NCBI RefSeq assembly: GCF_019061185.1
Contig: NZ_JAHQZU010000006.1
Span: forward strand, 1 to 64,000
Source of the DNA: Paracoccus sp. Z118
GTDB lineage: Bacteria; Pseudomonadota; Alphaproteobacteria; Rhodobacterales; Rhodobacteraceae
Length of the DNA stretch: 64,000 nucleotides
Direction: 5' to 3'
The notes under the pieces were generated by a model. The model did no database searches, was not told where the DNA came from, and worked only from the letters and a program-made list of their open reading frames with translations. This document shows positions 1 through 31,557 of the stretch, in pieces (position 1 is the stretch's first letter; each line of letters starts with the position of its first letter). The position numbers were made by a program, and so were the translations under genes.

Positions 1-93
1 CGCTACGACAGATGCCCCATCGTCTTCCTGTCCGCCGTCGCTCTCGCCGCTACCGTCCTCTTCTGGCTCTGAAATCAATGAGTCTGGAGCCTA
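1..93 (+). mobile_element. 3' end of an IS5-family (IS427-like) insertion sequence
   Basis: Frame 1 from base 1 reads the last 23 residues of an IS5-family DDE transposase: it begins RYDRCP, continues FLSAVALAA and ends FWL before TGA at 70-72. The RYDRCP...FLSA...FWL ending is typical of IS427-group transposases. After the stop comes GAGTCTGGAGCC (80-91), which looks like the terminal inverted repeat, and then CTAG at 91-94, the kind of short target these elements favour. The rest of the element lies off the left edge. It abuts and apparently truncates the IS110 transposase on the opposite strand. Confidence 0.75.
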
Positions 94-828
94 GTCGCGC
101 GCGGTGCGGAATTGTGTCACGTCCGGTGTCGTTGCAGTAATCGCGCTGGCGGTGATCGCGCCGACGCCCGGGATCGACGCCAGCCGCCGTGCGGTCGGGT
201 CTGTCTTTTGGGCCTGCTCGATCCGCCGCGTGATCTCGTCCACGCGCGCCCGCGTTTCGTTGAACTGCCCAGCGAGCACGTTGATCGCTTCCATCGCGTG
301 GTCCGGCACCGAATGCGCGGCCGTTTCCAGAAGGCGATCAATGTGCTGCACCCCGACAGGGCCTACGACCCCAAATTCCGCCAGATGCGCGCGGATGGCG
401 TTCACAATCTGCGTCATTTGTCGGACCAGCAGATCGCGCGTCCGGTGCTGCAACAGGACGGCCTGATGTGCCTCGGTCTTGACAGGGACAAAGCGCATCG
501 ACGGTCGTGTGACCGCCTCGCAGATGGCGGCGGCATCGGCAGCATCTGTCTTCTGGCGCCGGACATAGGGCTTCACATAGGAGGGCGGCATCAGCCGCAC
601 ATCGTGGCCCAGTTCGATCAGTTCCCGAGCCCAGGCGTGGGCACCAGCACAGGCCTCGATGCCGACGAGGCAAGAAGGCAGTTCAGCGAAGAACCGGACG
701 ACCTCAGCCCGACGCAACTGTCGCTTAAGTACCACTTGGCCTTCGACATCGACGCCGTGGAGCTGGAACACGTTCTTGGAAATATCGAGGCCGATCGTCC
801 TCACCGTTTGCGTCTTCTGGCTCTTCAT
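91..828 (-). pseudogene. IS110-family transposase, C-terminally truncated
   Basis: The protein is a 245-residue IS110-type transposase starting MKSQKTQTVRTIGLDISK. The N-terminal DEDD (RuvC-like) domain is recognisable from GLDISK, GIEACAGAHAWARELIELGH and KTDAADA. The C-terminal Transposase_20 (helix-hairpin-helix-like) domain starts at RRLASIPGVGAITASAI but stops at FRTARD, where family members continue for another 80-100 residues including the serine-bearing end. The stop codon lies at the junction with the IS5-family end at 1-93, so that insertion probably removed the rest. A purine-rich GGGAGGTTAGGAG site precedes the ATG. The element's upstream end seems to sit near 905, where it interrupts a small phage gene. 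It should be inactive in cis. Confidence 0.85.
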
Positions 829-3740: not shown

Positions 3741-3949
3741 TGACGGACTGGACGGAAACCGAGCTCTCGGCGCTGCGCCGGGCCTATTCCAGCGGCACGA
3801 CGCGGGTCAGCTATGACGGCAAGTCCGTCGATTACGGCTCGGCCGAGGACCTGCTCGTCCGCATCCGCACCATCGAGCGCGCCATCGCAGGCACCACACG
3901 GCCGCTGCCGGTGGCGGGGCTCGCGGGCTTCAGCCGCGGGGATCGCTGA
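3740..3949 (+). CDS. gpW-like head-tail joining protein
   Basis: A 69-aa protein, MTDWTETELSALRRAYSSGT, whose ATG overlaps the terminase TGA (TGATG). The pattern of an N-terminal helix, a short beta-hairpin (TRVSYDGKSVDYGS) and a second helix (AEDLLVRIRTIERAI) matches lambda gpW-type proteins. These plug the portal after packaging and prepare tail attachment. It sits between terminase and portal, as gpW does in lambda. Its stop overlaps the portal ATG. Confidence 0.8.
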   Translation: MTDWTETELSALRRAYSSGTTRVSYDGKSVDYGSAEDLLVRIRTIERAIAGTTRPLPVAGLAGFSRGDR

Positions 3950-5517
3950 TGTCGGCGACCTGGTTCGACCACGCCATCGCCACGGTGGCGCCGCGCATGG
4001 CCGCACGCCGCGTCATGGCGCGTCAGGCGTTCGAGACCCTGACGCGGGGCTATGACGGCGCGGCGCGCGGGCGGCGGACCGAGGGCTGGCGGGCGCCGGG
4101 ATCCTCCGCCGACACCGAGATCGGAGTCGCCGGGGCGCTGCTACGCGACCGGATGCGCGATCTGGTGCGCAACAACCCGCATGCGGCCAAGGCCGTCGCG
4201 GTGCTGGTCAACAACATCATCGGCGCGGGCATCATGCCGCGCGCCGCCAGCGGCGACGACAAACTGGATCGGAAGGTCGACGCTCTCTTCGAACGCTGGA
4301 CGGCAGAGTGCGACGCCGATGGCCAGCTCGATTTCTACGGGCTGCAGACGCTGATCTGCCGCGAGATGGTGGAGGCGGGCGAGGTGCTGGTGCGCCGCCG
4401 CCTGCGGCGCGCGAGCGACGGTCTGGTCGTGCCGCTGCAATTGCAGGTGCTGGAGGCCGACTTCCTCGACGCGACGAAGTCCGGCGCCCTTGGAGCAGGC
4501 AGCCTCGTGCAGGGGATCGAGTTCGATCCGGTCGGCAAGCGCCGGGCCTACTGGCTGCACGCGGAGCACCCGGGCGACGCCTATGGGGCCTTGCAGAACG
4601 GGTTGCAGAGCCGCCCGGTCCCCGCGACCGAGATCGCCCATGTCTACGAGAAGCAGCGAACGCAGGCGCGCGGCGTGCCTTGGGGGGCGCCTGTGATCCG
4701 GTCCTTGCGGGATCTCGACGACTACGAGGTGGCGGAACTGGTCCGCAAGAAGACCGAGGCCTGCGTCACCGCCATCGTCTTCGGCGACGACGAGGCGCAG
4801 CAGGGCATCGCGCCCTCCGTGGTCGATGCTGACGGCAACCGGGTCGAGCAGTTCGAGCCGGGCCTGATCGCCTATGCGCGCGGCGGCAAGGATATCCGCT
4901 TCAACCAGCCGTCGGCCACCGGCGGCTACGGCGAATACAAGCGGGCCAGCCTGCACACGATCTCGGCCGGGTTCCGGGTGCCCTACGAGCTGCTGACCGG
5001 GGACCTCAGCCAGGTGAACTATTCCTCGATCCGGGCGGGGCTTGTCGAGTTCCGGCGCCAGATCGACGCCGTGCAGTGGCAGCTCTTCATCCCGATGTTC
5101 TGCGCGCCGGTCTGGCGCTGGTTCACCGAAGCCGCGTGGGCGGCGGGCCAGATCCCGTCGCCGAGCGTGCCGGTCGAATGGTCGCCGCCGAAGTTCGAGG
5201 CGGTCGATCCGCAGAAGGACGCGATGGCTAACCTGCTGTCGATCCGCTCCGGCACCATGACGCTGGCCGAGGTGATCGCGAAACAGGGCCGCAACCCCGA
5301 CGCCGTGCTGGCCGAGATCGCCGCGACGAACGCCAAGCTCGACGCGCTGGGGCTGGTCCTCGACAGCGATCCGCGGCGGGTCACCAAGACCGGCAGCGCA
5401 CAAACCAAAGACGGGGCCAGCGATCTGGCGACCGATCCGACCGCCGACGAACCGGACACCGACGACCCGGCCGCCAACGCGGACAATGACCCGGCGCAGG
5501 CCGACCAACAGGACTGA
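3949..5517 (+). CDS. phage portal protein, lambda gpB family
   Basis: A 522-aa lambda-type portal. It would form the dodecameric ring at the capsid vertex through which DNA enters. Family features are the N-terminal stretch LRDRMRDLVRNNPHAAKAV, the central VLEADFLDATK and IEFDPVGKRRAYWLH strands, and the PYELLTGDLSQVNYSSIRAG motif, a hallmark of lambda portals. The C-terminus is acidic and low in complexity (ASDLATDPTADEPDTDDPAA), perhaps a disordered capsid-facing tail. Its ATG overlaps the preceding stop, and the next gene starts 5 bases after its own stop. Confidence 0.93.
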   Translation: MSATWFDHAIATVAPRMAARRVMARQAFETLTRGYDGAARGRRTEGWRAPGSSADTEIGVAGALLRDRMRDLVRNNPHAAKAVAVLVNNIIGAGIMPRAASGDDKLDRKVDALFERWTAECDADGQLDFYGLQTLICREMVEAGEVLVRRRLRRASDGLVVPLQLQVLEADFLDATKSGALGAGSLVQGIEFDPVGKRRAYWLHAEHPGDAYGALQNGLQSRPVPATEIAHVYEKQRTQARGVPWGAPVIRSLRDLDDYEVAELVRKKTEACVTAIVFGDDEAQQGIAPSVVDADGNRVEQFEPGLIAYARGGKDIRFNQPSATGGYGEYKRASLHTISAGFRVPYELLTGDLSQVNYSSIRAGLVEFRRQIDAVQWQLFIPMFCAPVWRWFTEAAWAAGQIPSPSVPVEWSPPKFEAVDPQKDAMANLLSIRSGTMTLAEVIAKQGRNPDAVLAEIAATNAKLDALGLVLDSDPRRVTKTGSAQTKDGASDLATDPTADEPDTDDPAANADNDPAQADQQD

Positions 5518-5521
5518 CCCC

Positions 5522-7576
5522 ATGGACACGATGATCGAACTGCCGGCCATGCGCCGGTCGGCGGAGCTTGCGCCGAACACCGCCGATGCCGACAGCCGCA
5601 CCGTCGAGGTGGTCTGGTCGGCCGGGGCCCGCGTCCGCCGCGCCACCTTCTTCGGCGAGCCATATGACGAGGAGCTCAGCCTCGACCCGGCCCATGTCCG
5701 GCTCGACCGGCTGAATGCGGGCGCGCCGTTCCTGAAGGTGCACGAGCTCGACACGCTCGATGCGGTGATCGGTTCGGTCGTGCCGGGCTCGGCGCGGATC
5801 GAGAACGGCCGGGGCATCGCGCTGGTCCGGATCAGCGAACGTGCCGATGTCGAGCCGATCTGGCGCGACATTCAGGCAGGCCACATCCGCGCGGTCTCGA
5901 TCGGCTATCAGGTCCACCGCTTCGAAGTCTCGAAACCCGAGGCCGCCCGCGAACTTTGGCGCGCGGTGGACTGGACGCCCTTCGAGGTCTCCGCCGTCGC
6001 GGTCGGCGCCGACCCCGCCGCGGGCTTCCGCGCCCAGCACCCCCTTCATGACTGCGTCCTTCACCGCCGGGACGCCCCTTCCAGCCCAAAAGGACCCATC
6101 CCGATGACGGACAAGACCGAAACCCCGGCGAGCGACGCCGCAACCCCCGCCACCCAGCCGACCGAGCCGGTCGAAACCGAGGACACCCCCATGACCGAGC
6201 CGAAAGCGGCTGCGCCCGACCCGAAGGTCGCGGCCAGCGAGACGCGCAGCCAGCCGAAGACGCAGGCAACTCCCGCGCCCGACACCGAAGCGGTCGCCAC
6301 CCGCGCCCGCGAGGCCGAGCGCGACCGCGTCTCCACCATCTACGATCTGGCCGGGCGGCTGAACCTCGAGCGCGGCTTCGCCGAGGATCTGGTCAAGCGC
6401 GGCGTCAGCGTCGACGAGTCCCGCCGCCTGATCCTCGACCAGGTCGCGGCCAAGTCGGACGAGACCCGGACCTTCCCGCATGTCTCCGTCCCCCTCGGCG
6501 GCCGGGACGAGCGCATCACCCGCCGCGACGCGGTGGCGAATGCGCTGCTGCACCGCTACAGCCCGACGCTGTTCCAGCTGGAGGACGCCGCGCGCCAGTA
6601 CCGCGGCATGACGCTGCTGGAACTGGCCCGCGAAAGCCTCGGCAATGCCGGGGTGAACACGCGGGGCCTGTCGCGCGATGAGGTCGCGACGCGGGCGCTG
6701 CGCTCGACCTCGGACTTCCCCGAGATCCTGTCGGCGGTTACCAACAAGACCCTCCGGCAAGCCTACGAGGCCTATCCCCGCACCTTCATGCTGTTCTGCC
6801 GCCAGGTGCTCGCCACCGACTTCAAGGCGATGCACCGGGTGCAGCTCGGAGAAGCGCCGCAGCTGCTGGAAGTCGGCGAGAGCGGCGAGTTCAAGCGCGG
6901 CACGCTCGGCGAGAGCAAGGAGAGCTACAAGGTCAAGACCTATGGCCGGGTGGTCGCGATCACCCGCCAGACGCTGATCAACGACGATCTCGACGCCTTC
7001 ACTCGCATCCCGGCGATGTACGGCAACTCCATCGCCCAGCTGGAGTCGGACGTGGTCTGGGGGATCATCACCGCCAACCCGGCGATGGCCGACGGCAACG
7101 CGCTCTTCCACACCACCCACAAGAACCTGGCAGGCACCGGCGCGGCGCTCGACGTCGGCAGTGTCGGCGCGGCCCGCGCCGCGATGGCGAAGCAGACGGG
7201 GCTCGACAAGAAGACGGTGCTGAACGTCCGGCCCGCCTTCCTGATCGTGCCGGCCTCGCTGGAACTGAAGGCCGAGCAGCTGGTCGCGCAGAACCTGGTG
7301 CCCGCCGCGACGTCCAGTGTGGTGCCGCAGTCGATCCGGACGCTGGCGCCGATCAGCGAGCCCCGGCTCGACGCCGCCAGCGAGACGGCCTGGTATCTGG
7401 CGGCCAGCCCGAACCAGATCGACACCATCGAGTACGCCTATCTCGAGGGTCAGCAGGGCGCCTACATCGAGACGCGCAACGGCTTCGACGTCGACGGCGT
7501 CGAGATCAAGTGCCGTCTCGACTTCGGCGCCAAGGCGATCGACTGGCGCGGCCTCTACAAGAACCCGGGCGCGTAA
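5522..7576 (+). CDS. prohead protease - major capsid protein fusion
   Basis: A 684-aa polyprotein read from ATG 5522 (MDTMIELPAMRR); an in-frame start at 5486 overlaps the portal. Residues 1-170 resemble an HK97-type prohead protease, with candidate catalytic His in LKVHELDT and Ser in IRAVSIGYQV. Residues 195-275 are an Ala/Pro/Thr/Glu-rich linker that could act as scaffold. The rest is a Mu gpT-like major capsid domain (for example FPEILSAVTNKTLRQAYEAY and GYGRV-like VKTYGRVVAITRQTLINDD). Such fusions are common in Rhodobacteraceae prophages. An internal ATG at 6104 with its own ribosome binding site may also produce linker plus capsid alone. Confidence 0.9.
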   Translation: MDTMIELPAMRRSAELAPNTADADSRTVEVVWSAGARVRRATFFGEPYDEELSLDPAHVRLDRLNAGAPFLKVHELDTLDAVIGSVVPGSARIENGRGIALVRISERADVEPIWRDIQAGHIRAVSIGYQVHRFEVSKPEAARELWRAVDWTPFEVSAVAVGADPAAGFRAQHPLHDCVLHRRDAPSSPKGPIPMTDKTETPASDAATPATQPTEPVETEDTPMTEPKAAAPDPKVAASETRSQPKTQATPAPDTEAVATRAREAERDRVSTIYDLAGRLNLERGFAEDLVKRGVSVDESRRLILDQVAAKSDETRTFPHVSVPLGGRDERITRRDAVANALLHRYSPTLFQLEDAARQYRGMTLLELARESLGNAGVNTRGLSRDEVATRALRSTSDFPEILSAVTNKTLRQAYEAYPRTFMLFCRQVLATDFKAMHRVQLGEAPQLLEVGESGEFKRGTLGESKESYKVKTYGRVVAITRQTLINDDLDAFTRIPAMYGNSIAQLESDVVWGIITANPAMADGNALFHTTHKNLAGTGAALDVGSVGAARAAMAKQTGLDKKTVLNVRPAFLIVPASLELKAEQLVAQNLVPAATSSVVPQSIRTLAPISEPRLDAASETAWYLAASPNQIDTIEYAYLEGQQGAYIETRNGFDVDGVEIKCRLDFGAKAIDWRGLYKNPGA
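6088..6106 (+). promoter_or_regulatory. internal ribosome binding site and start codon within the protease-capsid gene
   Basis: AAAAGGA (6088-6094) lies 9 bases before an in-frame ATG at 6104 (MTDKTETPAS), exactly at the protease/linker boundary. Re-initiation here would yield a scaffold-capsid product of about 490 aa in addition to the fusion. Confidence 0.4.
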
Positions 7577-7605
7577 CCCGCACCCAATGCCGAACCCTGA
7601 CATGC

Positions 7606-7627
7606 GGGCGGTCCTGACGGGCCGCCC
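7606..7627 (+). terminator. strong intercistronic hairpin after the capsid gene
   Basis: GGGCGGTCC-TGAC-GGGCCGCCC gives a 9-bp stem (one T.G pair) with a 4-nt loop, followed by TTCGTCTTT. It lies 30 bases past the capsid stop and before the decoration gene. It could be a leaky terminator or a stabilising 3' structure that sets the capsid to tail expression ratio. Confidence 0.45.
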
Positions 7628-7653
7628 TTCGTCTTTCCACAAGGATCCTCCCC

Positions 7654-7989
7654 ATGAAAAACTACGTCCAGCCCGGCAACACCATCACCCTGACCGCGCC
7701 CTATGCCGTCGCCTCCGGCGATGGCCTGCTCGCCGGCTCCATCTTCGGCATCGCGGCCGGGGACGCCGCCCTCGGCGAGCCCGTCGAGACCGCGCTCACT
7801 GGCGTGTTCGACATCACCAAGGTCGGCTCGCAGGCCTGGACCGTCGGCTCCAAGATCTATTGGGACGACACCAACAAGCGCTGCACCACGGTCGCGACCG
7901 ACAACACGCTCATCGGCGTGGCCGTCGAGGCGGTGGCCAGCGGCGCGGGCGACACCATCGGCCGCGTACGCCTGAACGCCACGTTCTGA
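7654..7989 (+). CDS. DUF2190-like capsid decoration protein
   Basis: A 111-aa protein, MKNYVQPGNTITLTAPYAVA, made mainly of predicted beta strands. The start (KNYVQPGNTI), the glycine-rich segment ASGDGLLAGSIFGIAAGDAA and the VGSKIYWDDTNKRCTT strand are typical of DUF2190. Members of that family behave as trimeric cement proteins on HK97-fold capsids. An AAGGATCCTCCCC stretch precedes the ATG. It directly follows the capsid gene and overlaps the next gene by one base at TGATG. Confidence 0.8.
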   Translation: MKNYVQPGNTITLTAPYAVASGDGLLAGSIFGIAAGDAALGEPVETALTGVFDITKVGSQAWTVGSKIYWDDTNKRCTTVATDNTLIGVAVEAVASGAGDTIGRVRLNATF

Positions 7990-8300
7990 TGAGCGCCTTC
8001 GCCGCCGCCGTCGGCGCGCTCTTCGCCGATCCGAACATCGGCCGGGACGCGGTCTACATCGCCGACGGCGGCGCGCCCGTGCTGGTGCGCGTCGTCGCCC
8101 GGCGCGCGGATGTCGTCTCCGACTTCGGCGATACACGGCTCTGGTCCGAGACCACCCGGATCGATCTGCGCGTGGCCGAGGTTGCGAACCCGCGCCCCGG
8201 CGACCGTATCGAGATCGACGGCGACGCCTTTCTCATTCAGGGCGAGCCCGTCCGCGACCGCGAGCGGCTGGTCTGGACCGTCGATCTGAGGCATGCGTGA
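7989..8300 (+). CDS. head-tail joining protein (lambda FII-like position)
   Basis: A 103-aa, beta-rich protein, MSAFAAAVGALFADPNIGRD, ending in the strand series RPGDRIEIDGDAFLIQGEPV. Its pattern (N-terminal helix with FADP, then strands ending in LVWTVDLR) and its place after the decoration protein fit gpFII or ATP-binding-like head-tail joiners. These close the head and bind the tail. The ATG overlaps the previous stop, and its own stop overlaps the GTG of the next gene. Assigned from pattern and position only. Confidence 0.65.
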   Translation: MSAFAAAVGALFADPNIGRDAVYIADGGAPVLVRVVARRADVVSDFGDTRLWSETTRIDLRVAEVANPRPGDRIEIDGDAFLIQGEPVRDRERLVWTVDLRHA

Positions 8301-8926
8301 AACTGAAGCTCGACATCGATCCTGACATCGTCGCGATGATGGCGGCCGAGGTCGCGGCGGGCGAGCGCGCCGTGACGGCCGCCATGCGCGAGGCCGGGAC
8401 CGGGCTGAAGTCGGCCTGGCGGCTGCAGATCACCGCTGCGGGACTCGGCACGCGGCTCGCCAACTCGATCCGCAGCCAGAACTTCCCGAGGTCGGGCGAG
8501 AGCCTCGACGCCGCGGCGCTGGCCTGGTCGAAGGCACCGGTCATCGTCGGCGCGCATGACACGGGGCCGCTCATCCGCTCGAAAGACGGGTTCTGGCTGG
8601 CGATCCCGCTGCCCGCCGCAGGCAAGTCCCTGCGCGGCGGCCGGATCACACCCGGCGAGTGGGAGCGCCGCCGCGGGTTGCGCCTGCGCTTCGTCTATCG
8701 CCGCACCGGCCCGAGCCTGCTTGTGGCGGAAGGACGGCTGAACTCGAAGGGTCAGGCGGTGGTCTCGCGCTCGAAGACCGGGCGCGGCAAGGTCACCGCG
8801 CCGATCTTCCTGCTGGTCCCGCAGGTCAAGCTGCCGAAGCGGCTCGACCTCGCGCGGGATGCTGACCGGGCAGCGGACAGCGTGCCGGGGCTGATCGTCG
8901 CGAACTGGGTGGACGGGCGGATCTAA
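8297..8926 (+). CDS. DUF6441/HK97 gp10-like tail-completion protein
   Basis: A 209-aa protein with a GTG start overlapping the preceding TGA. It begins with an amphipathic helix (EVAAGERAVTAAMREAGTGL) as in gp10-like or minor tail proteins, followed by TRLANSIRSQNFPRSGESLD and a basic beta-rich core. Rhodobacteraceae prophages carry a DUF6441 gene here. It is likely a neck or tail-terminator component. The GTPase cargo gene lies convergent immediately after it, separating it from the next tail gene by about 2.4 kb. Confidence 0.6.
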   Translation: MKLKLDIDPDIVAMMAAEVAAGERAVTAAMREAGTGLKSAWRLQITAAGLGTRLANSIRSQNFPRSGESLDAAALAWSKAPVIVGAHDTGPLIRSKDGFWLAIPLPAAGKSLRGGRITPGEWERRRGLRLRFVYRRTGPSLLVAEGRLNSKGQAVVSRSKTGRGKVTAPIFLLVPQVKLPKRLDLARDADRAADSVPGLIVANWVDGRI

Positions 8927-8956
8927 CCGCCCGTCTCTGCAAGTTTCACCGCCACT

Positions 8957-11236
8957 TCAGTGAATACGTGCAGCTGGGGTTGCAGCTATCTCCCCCCCGG
9001 CATCAATGATGGCTTCCTGTAGAAGTTCGTGAAGGCGGTTCAAGAAAAGACGAGCATCGGCACTCATTGCAGCACTGATCCTCGGCGCTGCGTTCTCGTG
9101 GATGGTCTCAATGGTACGGGCACGCAGCGTCGCGGAGCCCGGTCCGCTGTGATCGAATGCATCCCGCCAACCTGCAACTTGGTCGTCAGTGAGGCGACTT
9201 TTAGTGAGGTCGTAGAGCCTTCCGAAGACAGCCCGCCTGATCCGGTCCAGCGCCAGTTCACGCTCTTCTTCGTCAGAGGGTAATCGCGTCCATCCAGACG
9301 GGCGGTCTAACCACTTCGAAGCCTCCTCCTGCAGCCGCGCGAGGAGGTCTGCGACAGGGGTGAGATTATCGTATTCATCTGCCCAACGAGAAGCGAGCCT
9401 GCGACTGAGTGCCTTGATGCGTGTCCAGTGCTCCTTCGAGATGCCGTCGTGATAGGCGAGACCCAGCCTTGCGCGCCAAGGATCTCTGAACGCATCGATT
9501 GCGTCGTGCATCGCGATTTCGAGCCCCTTGAGGTCGTAGACCGGGCTGCAATCTGTTTCTTCCGCGGGAGAGGACGCTGCCTGCATCATTTCGATCAACT
9601 GCACCAGTTGGCGCTTGAAGCCGCCGGGAAGCCTCAAGGTGGGTTTGTCCAGCCCGCCCAAGAAGACGGAATTCGCGTCCACCTGACGTTCAATAGCTCC
9701 GGCTACGCCAGCACCGACGATGTCTCTCAGGCTGGCCACTGCGTTCCCGACTGAGCCGAGAACGTGGTCCCGCTTCTGATCGAATGAGCCCAGATTGGCA
9801 CCCTTGACCTGATCGAAATGCGTGAACGCGATGGCCAGCTTGTCGGCGAAGCCCGAACTTCCGACGGCGCGCAGCAGTGCCAAGGGCGCCGCCTGCATTG
9901 GCTGCTGCGCGTTGTCGACCAGCAAGATCATGTCCACCTTCGCAAACTTGTTCGTGACGCGCGTCGAGACCGACGAAACGCTACTGGCCGTGTGCCCAAG
10001 ACCCTGACCATCTAGGAGGACAAGCTTCAACTCGGCGGTATCGCCGCCCAGATCAGGGTAAAGGGGGCCCTGAACCCTGATCCCGTCGACAAGTGGTGTC
10101 AGCAATCGACCAAACTGCTTGTGATGGTTGCTCGAAAACCAGCGAACAGCGGCGAGGAATTCGTCACGGTCGGGACAGCTGAATGTCCAGATAATCGGCC
10201 AGTCGGTTGCCGAGCGCTCGGTGTTTCCGGCGTCAATTTTGGTGAAGCGATCTGCCACCTCATCCATGATGTCGAGGGCAAGGCTTGAGAACTTGGGGTT
10301 TCGGAAGGCCTCGACCCCGAAAAGCTCGAGCCAAGTCGCGCGGTCGTCTGCGGTCTTCTGGTCCTTGAGCTTCCCGAGAGACGCTTCGAACGTTGCCCCT
10401 GTTTCCTTGCTCAACTCCTTGATGGTGGAGACGAAGCTAGCAAGTCGCTCCCGATGTTGCGCGACTTCTTCCGACGATACGGCCTCCTCGTCATCAACCG
10501 CAGCTTCCGCAATCACGTCGTCTTCAAAGGAGAAATCATCATCATCGCTTTCGACAGAAGTCCTCCAGGCACCGAGAATGTAGGATAGACGAAAGCGTTG
10601 CTCGCGATGCTCCAGCAGGGCAGCAGCGATCTTTGCGTCTGGCTTTCCCTGAATCGCCTCTAGGCACGCTTCCTCCAGGCACTCATCTATGTGTGCTCGA
10701 ACTTCGTGCTCCGGCATGAAGGTGACGGCAGCCGAGAAATCGCCAGGAGAGGCAACAATCTCGATGTCGGCAGTTGTGGTCTTAGCTGTCGAAGTCGATG
10801 GAAAGCGGTCTTTCTCGGGGTCCGAGCCAATGATGTGCCGCAAGAGAGTTGTCTTTCCCGCCCCGGTCGTACCCAAGAAGAGAATGGTGCCGTAGCCGTC
10901 ATCCCGATTCGGCAAAGGGATCACGTCGGAGCGTCTTTCCTCAGCATCGTGCGCCACCACCTCTATGCCGTCGAAAAATGCCGATACCACGACTGGGTCG
11001 AAACGAAGTTCTGCGTCGTTGCGGCGATCGCCACTCCACCACGACTCATCGTGAAGAAGTTCGTTCAGTTGTCCCACCAAGAGATCGGCGGCAGCATCAT
11101 CTGAGGTGCCAAGGCCCTTCCGGACCTTGAGGCCCCACTCACCACGACTGTCGGTGCGAACCGGGTGTCGGAACGTGGCGCTCCAACCGGGACGGTTTGA
11201 TCTTGACTTGGATGCCGTAAATCTGCGCTCTGACAT
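8957..11236 (-). CDS. large dynamin-like GTPase, phage-borne cargo
   Basis: A 759-aa P-loop NTPase with Walker A/G1 GTTGAGKTT (residues 122-130), a G3-like LLDGQGLGHT and a G4-like FTHFDQVKG, so a TRAFAC-type GTPase is likely. A long insert of charged helices (about residues 180-340, including EDDVIAEAAVDDEEA) sits between G1 and G3. The C-terminal third is helical, like the stalk of dynamin-like proteins. No signal peptide or clear membrane segment is seen. It is antiparallel to the phage operon, less GC-rich than its neighbours, and has its own upstream repeat array at 11240-11317. This is the arrangement of a moron. A role in defence or exclusion of other phages is inference. Large dynamin-like and other P-loop NTPases act in several bacterial anti-phage systems. 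Confidence 0.75.
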   Translation of the reverse strand: MSERRFTASKSRSNRPGWSATFRHPVRTDSRGEWGLKVRKGLGTSDDAAADLLVGQLNELLHDESWWSGDRRNDAELRFDPVVVSAFFDGIEVVAHDAEERRSDVIPLPNRDDGYGTILFLGTTGAGKTTLLRHIIGSDPEKDRFPSTSTAKTTTADIEIVASPGDFSAAVTFMPEHEVRAHIDECLEEACLEAIQGKPDAKIAAALLEHREQRFRLSYILGAWRTSVESDDDDFSFEDDVIAEAAVDDEEAVSSEEVAQHRERLASFVSTIKELSKETGATFEASLGKLKDQKTADDRATWLELFGVEAFRNPKFSSLALDIMDEVADRFTKIDAGNTERSATDWPIIWTFSCPDRDEFLAAVRWFSSNHHKQFGRLLTPLVDGIRVQGPLYPDLGGDTAELKLVLLDGQGLGHTASSVSSVSTRVTNKFAKVDMILLVDNAQQPMQAAPLALLRAVGSSGFADKLAIAFTHFDQVKGANLGSFDQKRDHVLGSVGNAVASLRDIVGAGVAGAIERQVDANSVFLGGLDKPTLRLPGGFKRQLVQLIEMMQAASSPAEETDCSPVYDLKGLEIAMHDAIDAFRDPWRARLGLAYHDGISKEHWTRIKALSRRLASRWADEYDNLTPVADLLARLQEEASKWLDRPSGWTRLPSDEEERELALDRIRRAVFGRLYDLTKSRLTDDQVAGWRDAFDHSGPGSATLRARTIETIHENAAPRISAAMSADARLFLNRLHELLQEAIIDAGGEIAATPAARIH

Positions 11237-11239
11237 GAT

Positions 11240-11317
11240 GTTGTTCTCCGTTGTTCCAAACCGTTCTAGGGGCTGGCACGAGGCGCGTCAATCCAATTCG
11301 GAACAACGCAGAACAAC
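11240..11317. promoter_or_regulatory. paired GTTGTTC repeats forming an 18-bp inverted repeat upstream of the GTPase gene
   Basis: GTTGTTCTCCGTTGTTCC (11240-11257) and GGAACAACGCAGAACAAC (11300-11317) are reverse complements with one mismatch. Each arm holds two copies of the heptamer GTTGTTC/GAACAAC with a 10-bp period, so identical faces of the helix are presented. The array spans the space between the GTPase start (11236) and the tail gene start (11335). A regulator binding as two dimers, possibly looping, is a reasonable reading. Confidence 0.55.
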
Positions 11318-11334: not shown

Positions 11335-11757
11335 ATGCCCACCTCCCGCGAAACCATCCTCGCCGCGCTGCACACACGGCTCTCGGCACTACCCGCCACC
11401 GCCCTGCGCGGCGATGTGCTGCCAGAGCGTGTGCCGGCCGAAGGCCTGCTGATCTTGCGCGACGGCGAACCAGGGGAGCCGGAGCTGACGCTGTCGCCGC
11501 TGCGGTATCACTACCAGCACCGCGCCGAAATCGAGGCGGTCGTGCAGGGCGTCGACCGTGATGTCGCGTTCGATACGCTCACTGCCAGCATCGGCTTGGC
11601 ACTCGCCGCCGACCGCACGCTGAGGGGCCTCTGCGACTGGGTCGAGGCCGAAGCGCCGCGCCCGGTCGATCTGCCGGTCGAGGGCGCGGCCAGCCTGAAG
11701 GCCGCCGTCATCCCATTGGTGCTGCACTATTCGACGGACGATCCTCTCGGTGGGTGA
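11335..11757 (+). CDS. phage tail completion/terminator-like protein
   Basis: A 140-aa protein read from ATG 11335 (MPTSRETILAALHTRL). The helix-strand pattern (ILAALHTRLSALP, then LRYHYQHRAEIEAVVQG, then DTLTASIGLALAADRTLRGL) matches small minor tail/tail terminator proteins placed before the tail tube gene. In Rhodobacteraceae such genes are often mislabelled 'acyl-CoA transferase'. The ending KAAVIPLVLHYSTDDPLGG also fits that group. It resumes the phage operon after the GTPase cargo. The GIY-YIG gene starts its 3' end two bases past this stop on the other strand. Confidence 0.6.
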   Translation: MPTSRETILAALHTRLSALPATALRGDVLPERVPAEGLLILRDGEPGEPELTLSPLRYHYQHRAEIEAVVQGVDRDVAFDTLTASIGLALAADRTLRGLCDWVEAEAPRPVDLPVEGAASLKAAVIPLVLHYSTDDPLGG

Positions 11758-11758
11758 C

Positions 11759-12646
11759 TCAGTTGGCGTTGAGACCTAACGGCTGTCGCGAATGGAGCCG
11801 CAGCTTCCAGCTGTTCTCGCGAGCGATGACATCTTCAGCTGGCAGGTCTGGCGCAAGGCGTTCGAGAATGCTGAACCGATAATTGTGAGGGTCGCGGCCG
11901 CGCAATTCGCGGTTTCCACCGTGACCATCGCGGGCGTAGACCTGCCACCGACCGAAAATGTTTTCGCGACCGTAGGCGGAGCCGACATAGACCCGACGAT
12001 CGCTTTCATCGAAAATGAGGTAGATCCCGCGCCATTCAGCCAGCCGCGCCCGCCAAGACGCCGGTAGCGCCAAGAGTTCCGCGAAGGTGAGATCAATCTC
12101 GCGCCAGTCAGGCGGCGGGGCTGCGAAAGCGCTTTCTTCGCGGATCGCGCTGACAGGAAAGATCCCGCGGTCCACCCACCGGAACCATGAGCGCTCCGGC
12201 GGCGGAAAATCGATGACCAGCCGACCGCGCCAGTTGCTGTAGAAAGGAAGGCGCTCCAGATCGAACTGAAGCTCGGCTCCAACCCGGACCGCTTGCTCTG
12301 CTGTGAAACCCTCGTACCCCATTTCCCTGAGGGTAAGGTTTTCCGGTATGCGCCAGAAGGCGTCATGGTCGAGCGCGCGCGCCTCGCCGATGCGATAAAG
12401 CCCGACGAAGTGCGCTTTGCCGGGCGAGAGTCCTAGGAAGCTCGCTACAAATTCGGCCCGACGCAGGGCGGTTTTGGGTCGGCCGGGAACGGACTGGTAG
12501 ACTTCGAAAAGGTCCGGGCGTTCTTCGATAATCCACGGCATCGCGCGGGCAAGTCGGGTCTCGAAGGGGCGGTGGCGCAGCAGGACAATGCGCTCTCTGA
12601 TGTCTGGGTCGTATCCTTGAAGGCGCAATAGGTCCTTGAAATCCAT
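11759..12646 (-). CDS. GIY-YIG nuclease family protein, phage cargo
   Basis: A 295-aa protein from ATG 12646 (MDFKDLLRLQGYDP). The last 100 residues form a GIY-YIG domain: GIYLIFDES with YVGSAYG, a conserved Arg (FGRWQVYARDG) and the metal-binding Glu in VIARENSWK. The N-terminal 190 residues show no family I recognise. They include LARAMPWIIEERPDLFEVYQ and a region possibly used for target recognition. It lies antiparallel in the tail module between the tail completion and tail tube genes, so it is a second cargo gene. Homing, superinfection exclusion and restriction are all possible roles. An upstream in-frame ATG at 12736 would overlap the tail tube promoter region and is less likely. Confidence 0.75.
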   Translation of the reverse strand: MDFKDLLRLQGYDPDIRERIVLLRHRPFETRLARAMPWIIEERPDLFEVYQSVPGRPKTALRRAEFVASFLGLSPGKAHFVGLYRIGEARALDHDAFWRIPENLTLREMGYEGFTAEQAVRVGAELQFDLERLPFYSNWRGRLVIDFPPPERSWFRWVDRGIFPVSAIREESAFAAPPPDWREIDLTFAELLALPASWRARLAEWRGIYLIFDESDRRVYVGSAYGRENIFGRWQVYARDGHGGNRELRGRDPHNYRFSILERLAPDLPAEDVIARENSWKLRLHSRQPLGLNAN

Positions 12647-12751
12647 AGCAGCTCTGCTCTCAGCCCGTTGGGTGCAGCCTAAGCCCAGCGTAACTCGGCA
12701 GCAACGCTGCTTTATGTGATCCGCCCAGCGAGGCAAAGAAAGGAGAACACC

Positions 12752-13690
12752 ATGGCACGAGCCCAGGGGGCGCGGGCGCAGATGGCGCTTGCGTTCGAGA
12801 CCGTATACGGCACGCCGCCCGTGGGCGACTTCACGAAGATGCCCTTCGCCAGCACCACGCTCGGCGCGGAGCAGCCTCTGTTAAACTCCGAGCTTCTCGG
12901 CTACGGCCGCGATCCGCTGGCACCGATCAAGGACGCGGTGACGGCGGATGGCGATGTGGTCGTGCCGCTGGATGCCGAGGCGTTCGGCTTCTGGCTGAAG
13001 GCCGCGTTCGGTGCGCCGACCAACACGGGCACCGGCCCATGGACGCACGAGTTCCGGTCCGGCGCTTGGACGCTGCCGAGCCTCTCGATCGAGACCGGCA
13101 TGCCGGAGGTGCCACGCTATGCAATGTATTCCGGCTGCGTGCTCGACCAGATTACCTGGCAGATGCAGCGCTCGGGCCTGCTGACCGCCACGGCGCGCCT
13201 GGTGGCGCAGGGCGAGACAGTCGGCACGACCACCAGCGCCGGAACGCCCTCCGCGCTGGAGCTGAAGCGCTTCGGCCATTTCAACGCGTCGATCACGCGG
13301 AACGGTTTGGCTCTCGGCAACGTAGTCTCGGCCGAGATCACCTACGCCAACAACCTCGACCGGATCGAGACGATCCGCTCGGACGGGCGCATCGACGGCG
13401 CGGACCCTTCCATCGCGGCGCTGACCGGCCGGATCGAGGTCCGCTTCGCCGACCAGACGCTGGTGACGCAGGCCATCAACGGCGAGGCCTGCGAGATGGA
13501 GTTCGCCTACGTCCTGCCCTCGGGCGAGAGCTTCACCTTCACCGTGCACGCCTTCTACCTGCCGCGCCCGCGGATTGAAATTTCCGGGCCGCAGGGCGTC
13601 CAGGCGACCTTCGACTGGCAGGCCGCCCGTGACAGCGTCGTCGGCCGGATGTGCACCGCCACCCTCGTGAACGATGTGGAGACGTATTGA
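12752..13690 (+). CDS. phage tail tube (major tail) protein
   Basis: A 312-aa protein from ATG 12752 with an AAAGGAGAA ribosome binding site. It begins MARAQGARAQMALAFETVYG, the usual start of the 'phage tail tube protein' family (lambda gpV/TTP-like). Beta-rich segments such as SIETGMPEVPRYAMYSGCVL and EITYANNLDRIETIRSDGRI follow. The protein would stack as rings to form the tail tube on the tape measure. It sits immediately before the tail assembly chaperone, whose ATG overlaps its stop codon. Confidence 0.85.
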   Translation: MARAQGARAQMALAFETVYGTPPVGDFTKMPFASTTLGAEQPLLNSELLGYGRDPLAPIKDAVTADGDVVVPLDAEAFGFWLKAAFGAPTNTGTGPWTHEFRSGAWTLPSLSIETGMPEVPRYAMYSGCVLDQITWQMQRSGLLTATARLVAQGETVGTTTSAGTPSALELKRFGHFNASITRNGLALGNVVSAEITYANNLDRIETIRSDGRIDGADPSIAALTGRIEVRFADQTLVTQAINGEACEMEFAYVLPSGESFTFTVHAFYLPRPRIEISGPQGVQATFDWQAARDSVVGRMCTATLVNDVETY

Positions 13691-26263: not shown

Positions 26264-27865
26264 CTATAGAGTAACGTCATTTTGCCCAACAACCGATGCT
26301 GAAGCCTCAGAGCGGCTTCTTGGGTTTTCGCGAAGGGCTGGCTGTGTTGCTCCCGGTTCCGGAACGACCGGCGACACACTGCTGGTCTTTGTCCTTGGCC
26401 GGGACCCCAAGGCCTCGCTAGGTAGCCCCATGAAGAATTTCGTTATCGCCACCCTATACGCGTACTCATTGGCGTTACTGCCTGTGATGGCGATTGCTTT
26501 ACCGCCAGAGCTGAAGATGCCAAGGCAGTTTGGCACTCGATCCAATGGGCCTGGGTGCCGGAGTAACTTAAGCGCCAACTCTGGACAAGCAGCGTGCTTC
26601 GGACCCACGAGAATAAGCGATTTCTCTCGCAGCATTGGATCGGCGAGGAGGTCGAGTTCCCATTGCATCCCGGGAGTGGTTCCAGAAACCGCCACAATTG
26701 CCGTCGCCTCCTGAGCTAGCCGCCTTACTTGGCTTCTCCAGTCTCCACAGTGGAGGTACTGTCTAGCCGCGCCAAAGGGTTGATGCTTATCCGAGGGACG
26801 GCCAAGAGCGACGACTGGCCCAAAGCGGCTGAATTCTTCGACTATGAGGTGATCAAGAGATCGCAAGGGCTCTCCGATACGAAGCATTCTCGTCGCTAAG
26901 CCACTACCTCGCAATTCAAGTGCAACCTGATCGTCATCGAAAGATCTCAGAAATAAAACGGGAGGGCGCGCATCTGCTTTCCGCGCCTCGGAAAGAGTCT
27001 GCCGCGCCTCCTGGCGAGCCGCTCCTCGAAGTCGCGCACTAAATCGCAGCAGCAAAATCATCATGAGGGGGCTGGAAAACAAAATGAATTCCGAGATAAC
27101 CATCCCAGCAAGCTCCACGTTACCTACGGTGCTGGATTGGTTGTTGTTGCCGTCGTTATATGCAGCCTCGGTCACTGCGGTGACGGTGACGGCATAATTG
27201 GGAACCGCCACCTGTACGATAGAGAAGGCCGCCGCCAGCGTCAGCGCTGAAGCAGAGAAGAGAAGGTATGCTCGCCTCTTTCCCGCCCTAATCGTTTTTG
27301 CAAAGGGCGGCAGCCCAATTACTGTAGATAGCTTCAGTGCGGATATTAGTTTCTCTTTAGAGGCAAGTAAAGCTCTTTCGCCTTCAGTCAACCGAACAAC
27401 GGAAGCAAGAGCTCTCGCGAACAACAACATTGGGGCTAGAAGTTGGGCTAGGAGCGCGACGGTGATCAGCGGGATTAGAAACTCCCAAAACGCATAAGGA
27501 ACAGAATGAAGCACCACTGAGCTGTTGCCGAAGGAGAATACTGCAATGTACAGATACGGCGTTAAAAACACTAGGCAGGCGAGGAGGAGGATCGACGAAA
27601 ACGCATACAAAGCGGCCAGCAGCTTACTGCAAAGCTGGAAACATGCATGCCTGAGCCATGCTTTCAGGACGAACAGTGCAGAAAATAGCGCTAAGACGGG
27701 GTGAAAACCTGACGCCGACAGCGTAGCTCCGAGTGTAGTATACAAAGCTAGTGGCAAGAGGGCCACAGCTGGCGACGCAAGCGCAAGAGGTCCGGAAAGG
27801 CGCCGAGCGGTATGTATGCGCCTATGGCGCGCTTGAATCTTGTTGAGGTTCCATTGCTCCAACAT
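26264..27865 (-). CDS. polytopic membrane protein with a cytosolic Rossmann/TIR-like domain
   Basis: A 533-aa protein with about six membrane segments in residues 25-285 (for example LALASPAVALLPLALYTTLG and LLFSASALTLAAAFSIVQVA). A soluble domain follows: PPVLFLRSFDDDQVALELRG, FGPVVALGRPSDKHQPFGAA, DWRSQVRRLAQEATAIVAVS, TTPGMQWELDLLADPML, SLILVGP. The alternation of strands and helices, with a Glu in the WEL motif, suggests a nucleotide-binding TIR/SLOG-like fold. This FLR-F...WEL domain recurs in the protein at 33112-34173. The gene is 48 bases downstream of the amidase gene on the same strand and AT-richer than its neighbours. Function is unknown; a membrane-bound effector is inference. 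Confidence 0.6.
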   Translation of the reverse strand: MLEQWNLNKIQARHRRIHTARRLSGPLALASPAVALLPLALYTTLGATLSASGFHPVLALFSALFVLKAWLRHACFQLCSKLLAALYAFSSILLLACLVFLTPYLYIAVFSFGNSSVVLHSVPYAFWEFLIPLITVALLAQLLAPMLLFARALASVVRLTEGERALLASKEKLISALKLSTVIGLPPFAKTIRAGKRRAYLLFSASALTLAAAFSIVQVAVPNYAVTVTAVTEAAYNDGNNNQSSTVGNVELAGMVISEFILFSSPLMMILLLRFSARLRGAARQEARQTLSEARKADARPPVLFLRSFDDDQVALELRGSGLATRMLRIGEPLRSLDHLIVEEFSRFGPVVALGRPSDKHQPFGAARQYLHCGDWRSQVRRLAQEATAIVAVSGTTPGMQWELDLLADPMLREKSLILVGPKHAACPELALKLLRHPGPLDRVPNCLGIFSSGGKAIAITGSNANEYAYRVAITKFFMGLPSEALGSRPRTKTSSVSPVVPEPGATQPALRENPRSRSEASASVVGQNDVTL

Positions 27866-28756: not shown

Positions 28757-30403
28757 TCAAGATGGCAGGGTTTGCCGTTTTACATCCTCGACGACCGAGA
28801 CGATCCAAAGCCCCTCGTTGGCCGAGTAGCGGCCAGACTTGCCGTTGAGCCGGCGCATGCCCAGCAGCGAACTCTGCGGGTCGTATTTGCCGCCGGCATG
28901 GTGGAGGGCAATAACGCGCCAAGCCTCGTCGAAAACGGGGCTGCCGGAACTTCCGGGTGACGTCGGCGCGTGATAGTGCACTCGGCAGTGGCCGGGAGTC
29001 GGTGGAAGCCCGTCCGGCGGTCCTTCGTGGTCGAGCAGGCGGTTGTCTTGGAAAGCGATGTGCATCTCGTCCCCGCTGGGATGACCGATAATGTAGACGC
29101 GCGTTGGCGGTTCGACGCTAGGCAACAGATCGACGATCGGCACCGTCGGCACCTGCGAGCCGTCGCCGGCCAGCTTCAGGAGCGAGTAGTCGAGTCCGGC
29201 ATAGGGCGACTCCGCCAGGACTTCCGACACCAAGTGAGGTCCGCGGGCGGCACCCTCGGCCGCCTCAAAAAGAACCTCGATGTTCTCGGGTCGCTCGGCG
29301 TCGTCAGATCCTGTCCGATTGACGACATGATGGTTTGTGAGGACCAGCGCATCGCCGGTCGGCTTGAGGCCGAAGTCGCCGGCGCGGACGGCAAATCCCG
29401 TCCCGAAGCGACGGCCATGCAGACGGCGGATGGCGGCAACCGAAACCGCCCGGTCAAGCCCTTGGCGGTACCAGTTCAACGTTTTTGCATTTGTGTCGCC
29501 GAGCACCTTTTCCGCCTGTTCGCCGCTCGGCGCATCGGCGAAGCGCATGGCGCGAACGTGGTCCGGGGTGACCGACAGGACGCCGCATTCGCGCGCCGCT
29601 AGAGCAGCGTCGAGGAGCTGCATCAGGGTCTCGCCGCGCGGGCCGTCCCTCTGGATCTCCCAAACCTCCCGGAACTGGCGCATGGTACTGGCGAAGTTGA
29701 ACGGCGGGACGCTTTCGTCGCGGACGTAGACGCCGATCGCGGTTTCGGCATCGTCCCACTCGCCGAGTGCGACGTGCGCCTCGGCCTTAGTCGCCCACCA
29801 CCAGGCGTCGCGGTCGTCGGCGACAGTATTGTTAAGCACCGCCAGCACCTCGCGCGCAACATTCTGCAAACCAAGGTCAGGTGCTGGATTAAGCTTGCGA
29901 CGCTGTGCGGCGTACAGGCACGCAGCGAGGTTGATCCCGTGCCAGTGGTTCGCCGGGTTGTGCTCGAACGGCACCCGGTAGCTCACGACAGCCTGCTCAA
30001 TGGCCCGAGCAGCCTCCGCCAGAGAATGATCGGCGCAATCCATGTAGATCTGCTTGTGCGCGCGGCCACGCAATCCTTGCAGCTCGTCCGCATCCACCGC
30101 CCCGACGCTGGGCGCCCGAAGAGCGCGTTCGAGGAGGGCAATCGCTGGCAAGCAGGAGCCGGTTTCGATAAGTGCTTGAGCGTAATGCCTTACAATTTCT
30201 GCATCGTCCGGTCGCACTCGGGCAGCGGCCTCCGCGAGCTTGACAAGGCATTCGAACTGGCGCCTGTCCCGTAATTCCTTCAGCAGACCCTTCGCCAAGG
30301 CGAAGACTTCGTCTGTCGGCCGCGAGCGAAGCAGCCCCACGGCTGCCTCGGCACGTTCCACGAAGGCGTCCGCGCCGTCGCCATCGCCACCGGTCGCGCT
30401 CAC
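28757..30403 (-). CDS. cytosolic TPR-trypsin-like serine protease
   Basis: A 548-aa protein. Residues 10-300 form helical repeats of TPR type (for example DDAEIVRHYAQALIETGSCL and WWWATKAEAHVALGEWDDAE). Residues 325-545 form a trypsin-like protease: His359 in LTNHHVV, Asp405 in GLDYSLLKL and Ser486 in SPGSSGSPVFDE, with an oxyanion glycine preceding. No signal peptide is present, so it acts in the cytosol. TPR-linked proteases (trypsin, caspase-like, CHAT) are typical switch or executioner parts of bacterial conflict systems. Its start overlaps the stop of the unknown protein upstream, indicating a tight functional link. Confidence 0.8.
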   Translation of the reverse strand: MSATGGDGDGADAFVERAEAAVGLLRSRPTDEVFALAKGLLKELRDRRQFECLVKLAEAAARVRPDDAEIVRHYAQALIETGSCLPAIALLERALRAPSVGAVDADELQGLRGRAHKQIYMDCADHSLAEAARAIEQAVVSYRVPFEHNPANHWHGINLAACLYAAQRRKLNPAPDLGLQNVAREVLAVLNNTVADDRDAWWWATKAEAHVALGEWDDAETAIGVYVRDESVPPFNFASTMRQFREVWEIQRDGPRGETLMQLLDAALAARECGVLSVTPDHVRAMRFADAPSGEQAEKVLGDTNAKTLNWYRQGLDRAVSVAAIRRLHGRRFGTGFAVRAGDFGLKPTGDALVLTNHHVVNRTGSDDAERPENIEVLFEAAEGAARGPHLVSEVLAESPYAGLDYSLLKLAGDGSQVPTVPIVDLLPSVEPPTRVYIIGHPSGDEMHIAFQDNRLLDHEGPPDGLPPTPGHCRVHYHAPTSPGSSGSPVFDEAWRVIALHHAGGKYDPQSSLLGMRRLNGKSGRYSANEGLWIVSVVEDVKRQTLPS

Positions 30404-31203
30404 AGCTCGATCCCGCGGATGTACCCAGCGACGTAGTCGGCAACCTTGTCCTCGATTAGGTCCTTGTTGCGGTCGAACACCGCCGAATTGAGGCTAAGGC
30501 CGGCGCCGAACCCGCGCAGCACGGCTCGCGTGCCGGAGGACTTGAAAAACAGGACCTGCGTCAGAGACTTCGTGGCCTCAAGTTCGAAGCAGACGAGGCG
30601 AACCTGCGGAGCCGCACCGTCCGGGGCAGCAGCGTGGCTGATCTGGAACTGGTTGCCCGAGGCCCGCCCGCTCCCTCGGTCGAAGAGGGTGACCCAGGGT
30701 CTGTCTTGGTCCATGTTTGACAGGCCCTCGAGTACAGCGGTGACCATCGCGGCCGCAGCAACACCAGGGCCGAGCAGCAGCGTCAGCAGCGGGATAATCT
30801 CCTTGTGCACCTCGTTCGATGTGCCAGACATTTCCCGCTCGGACGACTCGTCGCGCTCAAGGATCCATCCGGTGTTGGCGAGGACCTCGACATAGGCTCG
30901 GTACCAAGCACTGCCGCCGCCGGAGGCGGTCTCCACCGCGCGGTTGGCGGCGAGCTGCGCAAGCAGGAAAGCATTGGCGATCTGCGGGCGCAGCGCCGCT
31001 GGAACGTCAGCGGTGAACTCGGCGATCTGCGAGCCGACCGCGACTGCCTGGACTTCGCCATCCCGGTAAACCGGCGGTGCGCCACCCGTTTCGGCGGCTA
31101 GAGCTTCCCGCGCGGCTGGTGTCAGTCGCGGGAGATCGATGCCATCAATGAAGTTGTGCGCCGCGGCCGGGTCCGTGATCTCATCCCTGTCGAAAATGGA
31201 CAT
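30400..31203 (-). CDS. unknown protein, first gene of the protease-amidase operon
   Basis: A 267-aa protein, MSIFDRDEITDPAAAHNFID, of no family I recognise. It has conserved-looking aromatic motifs (WYRAYVEVLANTGWILERDE), then a hydrophobic segment (IIPLLTLLLGPGVAAAAMVT) and a beta-rich C-terminal half (PQVRLVCFELEATKSLTQVL; GTRAVLRGFGAGLSLNSAVF) ending in an acidic-basic helix (DLIEDKVADYVAGYIRGIEL). It could be a protease substrate, a pore-forming effector or a sensor. A TATAGT-like box lies 36-41 bases upstream of the start. Its stop overlaps the protease start by 4 bases. Confidence 0.6.
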   Translation of the reverse strand: MSIFDRDEITDPAAAHNFIDGIDLPRLTPAAREALAAETGGAPPVYRDGEVQAVAVGSQIAEFTADVPAALRPQIANAFLLAQLAANRAVETASGGGSAWYRAYVEVLANTGWILERDESSEREMSGTSNEVHKEIIPLLTLLLGPGVAAAAMVTAVLEGLSNMDQDRPWVTLFDRGSGRASGNQFQISHAAAPDGAAPQVRLVCFELEATKSLTQVLFFKSSGTRAVLRGFGAGLSLNSAVFDRNKDLIEDKVADYVAGYIRGIEL

Positions 31204-31557
31204 CCTGGATCCTCTGTGATTCCAGAAGCAATCGCGCCACTATAGCAGGATTGTGTCTGCTCGGGGCCGATGCATCGAGAATTTTTGTTAGTGGTTCGCA
31301 GCAGAATGTCCGGTCGTTCATCGGTTGAGTTGGAGCGCATTGCGGCTGACCCCGTCCACTCGATCGGCGCAGGATCCACGTCCTCAAGGACGACCCCGGC
31401 ACCTGACAAGTCGATCGGGCGGCGAGGTTTTCTTCACCGTCAAAGCAAGTGACTCCCAAAGTTGTTCGTGGTCTGCCAAAGTGTTCTCGGGGCTAATGAA
31501 AAAGTGCGCAGGCCTTCATGGCGGTAGGACACTGAAACGCTGCCTCTGGAGACGACG
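31204..31557. other. divergent intergenic region between the two halves of the putative conflict system
   Basis: This 354-base stretch separates the minus-strand operon (start 31203) from the plus-strand DUF4071-like gene (start 31558). A TATAGT-like box is seen on the minus strand at 31244-31239. An AT-rich stretch (GAATTTTTGTTAGTGG) lies near 31280. No open frame with convincing coding character and no strong palindrome were found. Promoters for both directions are expected here. Confidence 0.5.

Follow-up and report, generated by a model that had tools for sequence, protein, structure and literature searches.

Bacterial dynamins are known for membrane upkeep, and one of them, DynA, is described as protecting Bacillus populations from phages through delayed lysis (PMC8844932). 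Eleos (LeoBC) has been presented as a defence system of dynamin-like type (PMC11811056), and the eukaryotic Mx and IRG proteins are dynamin-type immune effectors. Antiviral hotspots of prophages of the P2/P4 type are small loci of high turnover that separate two conserved phage genes; they are found next to cos, between the cI and integrase genes, or close to an integrase (PMC9122126). The GTPase described here has a predicted core that aligns best with SynDLP, a bacterial dynamin-like protein as are BDLP and DynA, and with mitofusins, and it is encoded within a prophage of Paracoccus sp. Z118.

The window, i.e. the whole stretch of 64,000 nucleotides that was analysed, contains this prophage at approximately 1.2 to 26 kb, with terminase, portal, protease-capsid fusion, decoration, tube, chaperone, tape measure, tail and endolysin-like genes. 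The GTPase gene (8957..11236, minus strand) starts with ATG and codes for 759 aa. It fills a slot, hereafter slot A, between the gene of a DUF6441 protein (8297..8926, plus strand; PF20039, E 9.5e-45), from whose converging stop it is separated by 30 bp, and a tail terminator gene (11335..11757, plus strand; phrog_4204, E 4e-39; likely ATG at 11335). The terminator gene is also the left anchor of a second slot (slot B), which is closed on the right by the tail tube protein gene (12716..13690, plus strand; PF18906, E 6e-59) and holds a gene coding for UzuA (Uzume, GIY-YIG type; 11759..12646, minus strand; PADLOC, E 2.3e-70). The UzuA model was matched across profile positions 2-278 of 278, corresponding to residues 30-325 of the longer ORF reading; this ORF is readable from a TTG at 12736, the inner ATG at 12646 being the likelier start. 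Slot B is occupied by UzuA relatives in L053 (96%) and L115 (71%) as well. In 1-kb bins, the GC content of the GTPase gene (two bins) is 0.60 and 0.57 versus 0.71 in the preceding bin, and 0.63 in the two bins beyond it, within which the second cargo gene, UzuA, also lies. Elsewhere in the window, an IS110-type transposase ORF (91-828, minus strand) adjoins the terminase genes, and two proteins are encoded just past the tail and lysis genes, namely a TPR-S and trypsin-like protease protein (28757-30403) and a MAP3K_TRAF_bd and TPR-S protein (31558-32892); the block at 28757-32892 is possibly another accessory or defence block. Low GC values were also recorded at 26-28 kb (0.54-0.58) and at 33-34 kb (0.48), and the ORFs of the low-GC stretches 26264-27865 and 33112-34173 matched no Pfam family at 1e-4.

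The GTPase sequence contains, all on the minus strand, (i) a G1 motif or P-loop GTTGAGKT (residues 122-129; 10850..10873), (ii) a G2 region PSTSTAKTT (residues 146-154; 10775..10801), (iii) a G3 motif DGQG (residues 409-412; 10001..10012) and (iv) a G4-like motif THFD (residues 472-475; 9812..9823). In an alignment of 14 sequences sharing 37-81% identity with the window protein, G122-T129 and T472-D475 are identical in all sequences, P146-T148, K152-T154, D409 and G410 are invariant, and G412 is found in at least 90%. The usual form of G4 is T/NKxD. In THFD the aspartate is kept and the usual lysine is absent, so that the preference for GTP is only putative. Compared with dynamins, G1, G2 and G3 are present as expected, whereas the G4 motif THFD, the insertion of approximately 230 residues before G3, an extra N-terminal domain with its own repeat array, and the lack of a transmembrane segment in the hydropathy analysis set the protein apart.

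An AlphaFold2 model was built on 15 sequences (the window protein and related loci) and reached a pLDDT of 73 and a pTM of 0.63; as regards the helical bundle and stalk of dynamins, helices are predicted downstream of residue 538, and residues 590-625 have a pLDDT <50. Six PDB matches were obtained with Foldseek at E<=0.001, corresponding to Fzo1 and a bacterial dynamin pair. A second alignment of the model placed SynDLP on top (Z 17.2, rmsd 4.2, 273 aligned), with mitofusins at up to Z 16.9 and ordinary GTPases slightly lower (EngB, Z 14.8; Era, 13.8); MxA and IRGa6 were aligned at Z 14.8 each. In a viral structure library, the best match was a Catovirus dynamin-domain protein (E 1.3e-4). The predicted GTPase core is, on this model, most like dynamins. 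The likeness to Mx and IRG is in predicted fold only: a PDB profile search (14 rows) gave a best E of 0.079, covering mostly P-loop stretches, and no sequence match to Mx or IRG beyond P-loops.

At the sequence level, searches of the full-length protein against Pfam, PHROG, NCBIfam and PADLOC returned generic P-loop matches below cut-off and no fitting family, the Pfam Dynamin_N model scoring 11.8 bits for a cut-off of 27, and no match was found among INPHARED phages at E 0.1. As the Dynamin_N model fails and the G4 lysine is absent, the GTPase is not filed as a member of the dynamin family. The LeoBC model of Eleos matches it at E 0.035, over P-loop residues 117-135 only, and the GTPase family differs from Eleos in that no recurrent partner gene was seen in the annotated stretches. 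Identity with mad8 of the MADS system (PDLC04140; E 9.4e-5 over residues 116-281) was considered and rejected, since this generic model also matches 2 of the 70 control plasmid proteins described below at 1e-10 or better; PADLOC matches to PDLC04140 need care for the same reason. No description of this GTPase family was found in the open-licence literature, and the protein can be described as dynamin-like by predicted fold, in a family apparently undescribed in the literature searched.

These results bear on the initial annotation, which had been made from the DNA letters and their open reading frames. Its description of a 759-aa GTPase, antiparallel to its neighbours, lower in GC and with its own regulatory array, was confirmed by the ORF, motifs, GC bins and repeats, and its remark that no described family could be recognised still stands, no family model having matched. 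Its term dynamin-like is supported by the predicted fold and not by sequence models. As for the long charged insert that it placed after G1, a long insert is indeed present; it lies past G2, between the strand at residues 167-173 and G3, and is strongly acidic only at residues 228-262 (10451..10555, minus strand; net charge -14), a part modelled with low confidence (pLDDT <50 at 228-251).

Morons occur in phage tail regions, e.g. in HK97. Slot A is a cargo hotspot in the phage clade of the window and carries mostly different genes. The loci studied were the 80 nearest in DUF6441 (viral loci L041-L120) among at least 583 confirmed matches; known carriers of the GTPase such as L001-L004 lie outside this set. 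A tail terminator was found in 73 of the loci, the other 7 being dropped. Slot A is filled in all 73 loci with both anchors (514-3239 bp, median 998), which are not independent, some of them sharing contig populations and cargo, whereas other junctions of the same loci reach 300 bp in 0/30, 3/46, 2/47, 0/79, 6/69 and 0/59 cases. The main ORF of slot A is antisense in 52 of the 73 loci. Its 112 candidate ORFs, chosen by a GC-frame score that may let in spurious ones, fall into 92 clusters, which is an upper bound. Annotation covered 72 of the 92 cluster representatives, one alternative reading and the UzuA of the window; among the best 25 of 53 Pfam families, model matches in sister phages comprise (i) ParE-like toxins, HipA, HEPN, NYN and QueC-like proteins, and (ii) cation efflux, chromate and sulfate transport, reductases and metabolic genes. 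The GTPase accounts for slot A in 2 of the 73 loci (contigs of L005 and L033), and UzuA is found in slot B of 2. In a more distant set, 7/76 loci have at least 300 bp in slot A and 6/73 in slot B, never both in the same locus, and three of the six filled slots B contain the GTPase; the negative gaps obtained for this set are artefacts that stem from extrapolation of the alignments. Like the P2/P4-type hotspots, slot A is a small locus of high turnover between two conserved phage genes, here of 0.5-3.2 kb; it differs in lying between head and tail genes, and an antiviral role of its cargo, some of which matches models, is putative. Neither a prophage antiviral hotspot between head and tail genes nor any hotspot in the head-tail region of these phages was found in the open-licence literature.

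Relatives of the GTPase are encoded antisense in slot A of 11 other contigs (L001-L007, L010, L025, L033 and L034), and an 81% identical copy is present in slot B, where the window has UzuA, in three contigs (L031, L032 and L039). Among the contigs compared, L006, L009, L024 and L040 belong to one genome, L028-L030 repeat earlier contigs, and L033/L034 and L031/L039 are near-identical pairs. In comparison with L007, the flanks show a DNA identity of 0.73-0.85 and the gene one of 0.92-0.98 (0.87 in one bin), and this rise between the slot edges indicates that the gene and its repeats moved together. The contrast is milder with L002 (flanks 0.85-0.95, gene 0.95-1.00), and no jump of identity occurs at the slot with L006 (gene 0.73-0.85, flanks 0.80-0.95). 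Genomes with a match, including that of the window, numbered 5/385 in the class, 5/394 in the family, 3/398 in the phylum and 1/61 in the genus, a few of the matches being fragments or weak. The GTPase gene is cargo rather than a phage housekeeping gene. The proposal that it is carried as prophage cargo was upheld by the recurrence of the gene at this position in related phages (11 contigs for slot A, with three more for slot B) and by the nature of the slot itself, and the rarity and patchy occurrence of matches among genomes does not fit homologues that would be chromosomal housekeeping GTPases.

Relatives were also found in other islands and in 11 plasmid records, on plasmids of Proteobacteria and Rhodococcus. 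In the annotated stretches, recurrent partner genes were confined to the near-identical Rhizobiaceae plasmids and to the pair L129/L130, so that the system is probably a single gene. In L129 (7094-11983) and L130 (7094-9798), both Rhodococcus plasmids, genes coding for a NYN-domain protein and an N-6 DNA methylase lie directly upstream of a GTPase devoid of the N-terminal domain. In L011 (Sinirhodobacter populi; 3826-10262), the GTPase adjoins a degraded start of the terminator gene and an apparent short Argonaute operon, read by eye. A distant relative, G827:C200:392-1318 (L234, L235), shares 25-33% identity in two pieces and lies within an open frame of 987 aa.

The gene neighbourhoods, with defence models beside the plasmid copies, are the basis of an antiviral reading, according to which the protein would be, with moderate probability, an antiviral GTPase that acts alone, regulates its own expression and is carried as cargo by the prophage; the host phage would be a temperate siphophage in this best explanation, that grade applying to the reading as a whole. 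Among the best 25 PADLOC families, the neighbours of six plasmid copies match BrxL (7e-304), a type I methyltransferase (8e-204), a CBASS phospholipase (1.6e-156) and cyclase (1.6e-115), and AbiEi, AbiEii, DruE and DrmD models. The neighbour set consisted of 70 complete CDSs of at least approximately 100 aa from L013, L014, L015, L017, L018 and L129; L016 was left out, as were L127, L128 and L130, which are repeats or near-copies. The number-matched control set consisted of 70 out of about 96 usable CDSs from six stretches located elsewhere on these plasmids (L131-L136). At 1e-10, 90 PADLOC models were matched in the 70 neighbour proteins versus 35 in the 70 controls, whose best match was 1.4e-52 and whose best 25 families were mostly generic matches of UvrD-helicase type. 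The presence of UzuA beside the GTPase in the window also counts in favour of an antiviral role, as do the recurrent slot position and the filling of that slot in sister loci, the joint movement of gene and repeats, the array found with the N-terminal domain, the patchy occurrence, the dynamin-type predicted fold, the low dN/dS values and the precedent of DynA. Counting against it are the mixed slot cargo of sister phages, the Bradyrhizobium plasmid neighbourhood, the flat identity profile with L006, the deviating arrays of L016 and L019, and the missing G4 lysine.

The main rival, which is rather unlikely, is that of a lysogenic-conversion gene with a host benefit other than antiviral, e.g. 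envelope or stress maintenance. The metal and sulfate transporters and metabolic enzymes among the slot cargo of sister phages are compatible with such a benefit, as is the known role of bacterial dynamins in membranes cited above; furthermore, the Bradyrhizobium plasmid neighbourhood has a metabolic look, the copy lying among oxidoreductases. It is set against the excess of PADLOC matches near plasmid copies over controls, and against the defence or mobile-element neighbours that annotation places in five of the six plasmid stretches.

Upstream of the gene, a likely promoter, TTGACG - 17 nt - TAGAAC (11263..11291, minus strand), was read by eye; it is not listed by the rule of the promoter scan, and no terminator was found either. 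Inverted pairs of GTTGTTCC-like repeats flank this promoter on either side. The proximal pair (11240..11257, minus strand), which covers the likely start of transcription and the ribosome site, reads GTTGTTCTCCGTTGTTCC, and its inverted copy, the distal pair (11300..11317, minus strand), lies just upstream of the -35 element; both show zero mismatch to the searched pattern. No further copy was found in a pattern search of the whole window, and two matches at up to 2 mismatches were obtained in 0 of 100 shuffles, with a pattern drawn up after the site had been seen. The repeats were also considered as transposon-like terminal repeats, a reading that was rejected as they bracket the promoter only.

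The protein begins with a putative DNA-binding domain (residues 1-95; 10952..11236, minus strand), predicted to consist of three strands and helices (residues 1-97 in the prediction; pLDDT 83.8). Fold searches with this domain gave no match of note. The topology of integrase arm-type and AP2-like domains, with three strands and a helix, fits the model; DUF6538 was matched below cut-off by 2 of 5 N-terminal domain queries, an hhalign comparison with the integrase arm domain gave a local P of 0.0044 over 18 columns only, a single doubtful partial match (E 0.03) was obtained in INPHARED, and a search of plasmids with the domain alone returned 6 records, all of them already known carriers of this GTPase. 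These comparisons did not establish any homology of the domain to integrase arm domains or to other DNA-binding domains. In 21 loci with this domain, which encode proteins 41-97% identical to that of the window and are related rather than independent, TTGAC is present upstream of the gene in all 21 and the array in 19 (0 of 300 shuffles as good). The array of L019 is rearranged (1 of 300 shuffles as good), and no array was found in L016, where the domain is present (295 of 300 shuffles as good). In the Rhodococcus relatives, which retain the core and lack the N-terminal domain, the array was found in 0 of 4 loci (52-255 of 300 shuffles as good). Moreover, it is retained in L026/L036, where the gene follows the decoration-protein gene of another prophage. 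As the array follows the N-terminal domain across loci and is kept at this other site, it belongs to the gene, and the domain probably binds it, a view that draws on loci of shared ancestry.

In the antiviral reading, the lysogen would express the gene from the promoter described above, in the direction opposite to the virion operon, and the N-terminal domain would bind the inverted GTTGTTCC pairs around this promoter, holding the level of the protein low. Upon infection by a competing phage, the dynamin-like nucleotide-binding core may change state and assemble, and the assembled core could either disrupt replication of the invader, in the manner of Mx, or act on the membrane and stop the infected cell. 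A more specific version, put forward only tentatively, describes a one-protein bacterial counterpart of Mx with a built-in regulator, carried in an always-filled head-tail hotspot: the N-terminal domain would hold the protein on its own array until phage DNA titrates it off, upon which expression would rise and the core would assemble and stop the infection. The same co-occurrence of domain and operator-like array could suggest a nucleotide switch that binds DNA to regulate genes of the prophage or of the host and is associated with antiviral genes only incidentally. This is improbable, given that the sole such array found in the window is the gene's own, that a dynamin-type core in a protein of 759 aa is large for a regulator, and that the Rhodococcus relatives dispense with both domain and array.

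A protein of virion assembly or of other phage housekeeping, as the position among head and tail genes could suggest, is very improbable: the gene is antisense, unrelated cargo replaces it in sister phages, and copies reside on plasmids. In RcDormio, a cultured relative that infects Rhodobacter capsulatus and has a 42% identical capsid protein, the equivalent genes directly adjoin each other, slots A and B both being empty, and a role in morphogenesis was rejected on the basis of this empty place and of the variable content of the slot. Finally, a decaying gene without function, to which partial copies elsewhere might point (a copy divided between the ends of two contigs, and two fragments from the C-terminus), is scarcely credible in view of the uninterrupted reading frame of the window gene and of the listed full-length relatives and of dN/dS values of 0.045, 0.033 and 0.069 in the three computable pairs (synonymous sites being saturated in five further pairs), which indicate that the gene is under purifying selection.

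In summary, if the antiviral reading is right, an undescribed family of dynamin-like GTPases would join the antiviral genes of alphaproteobacterial prophages, and the same family would supply antiviral genes to plasmids of Proteobacteria and Rhodococcus. It would come with a built-in regulatory circuit that is directly testable, and would resemble Mx and IRG immunity. The hotspot may be of greater importance, as a head-tail slot filled in 73 of 73 sister loci, mostly with different genes, would be a ready source of accessory genes for testing.
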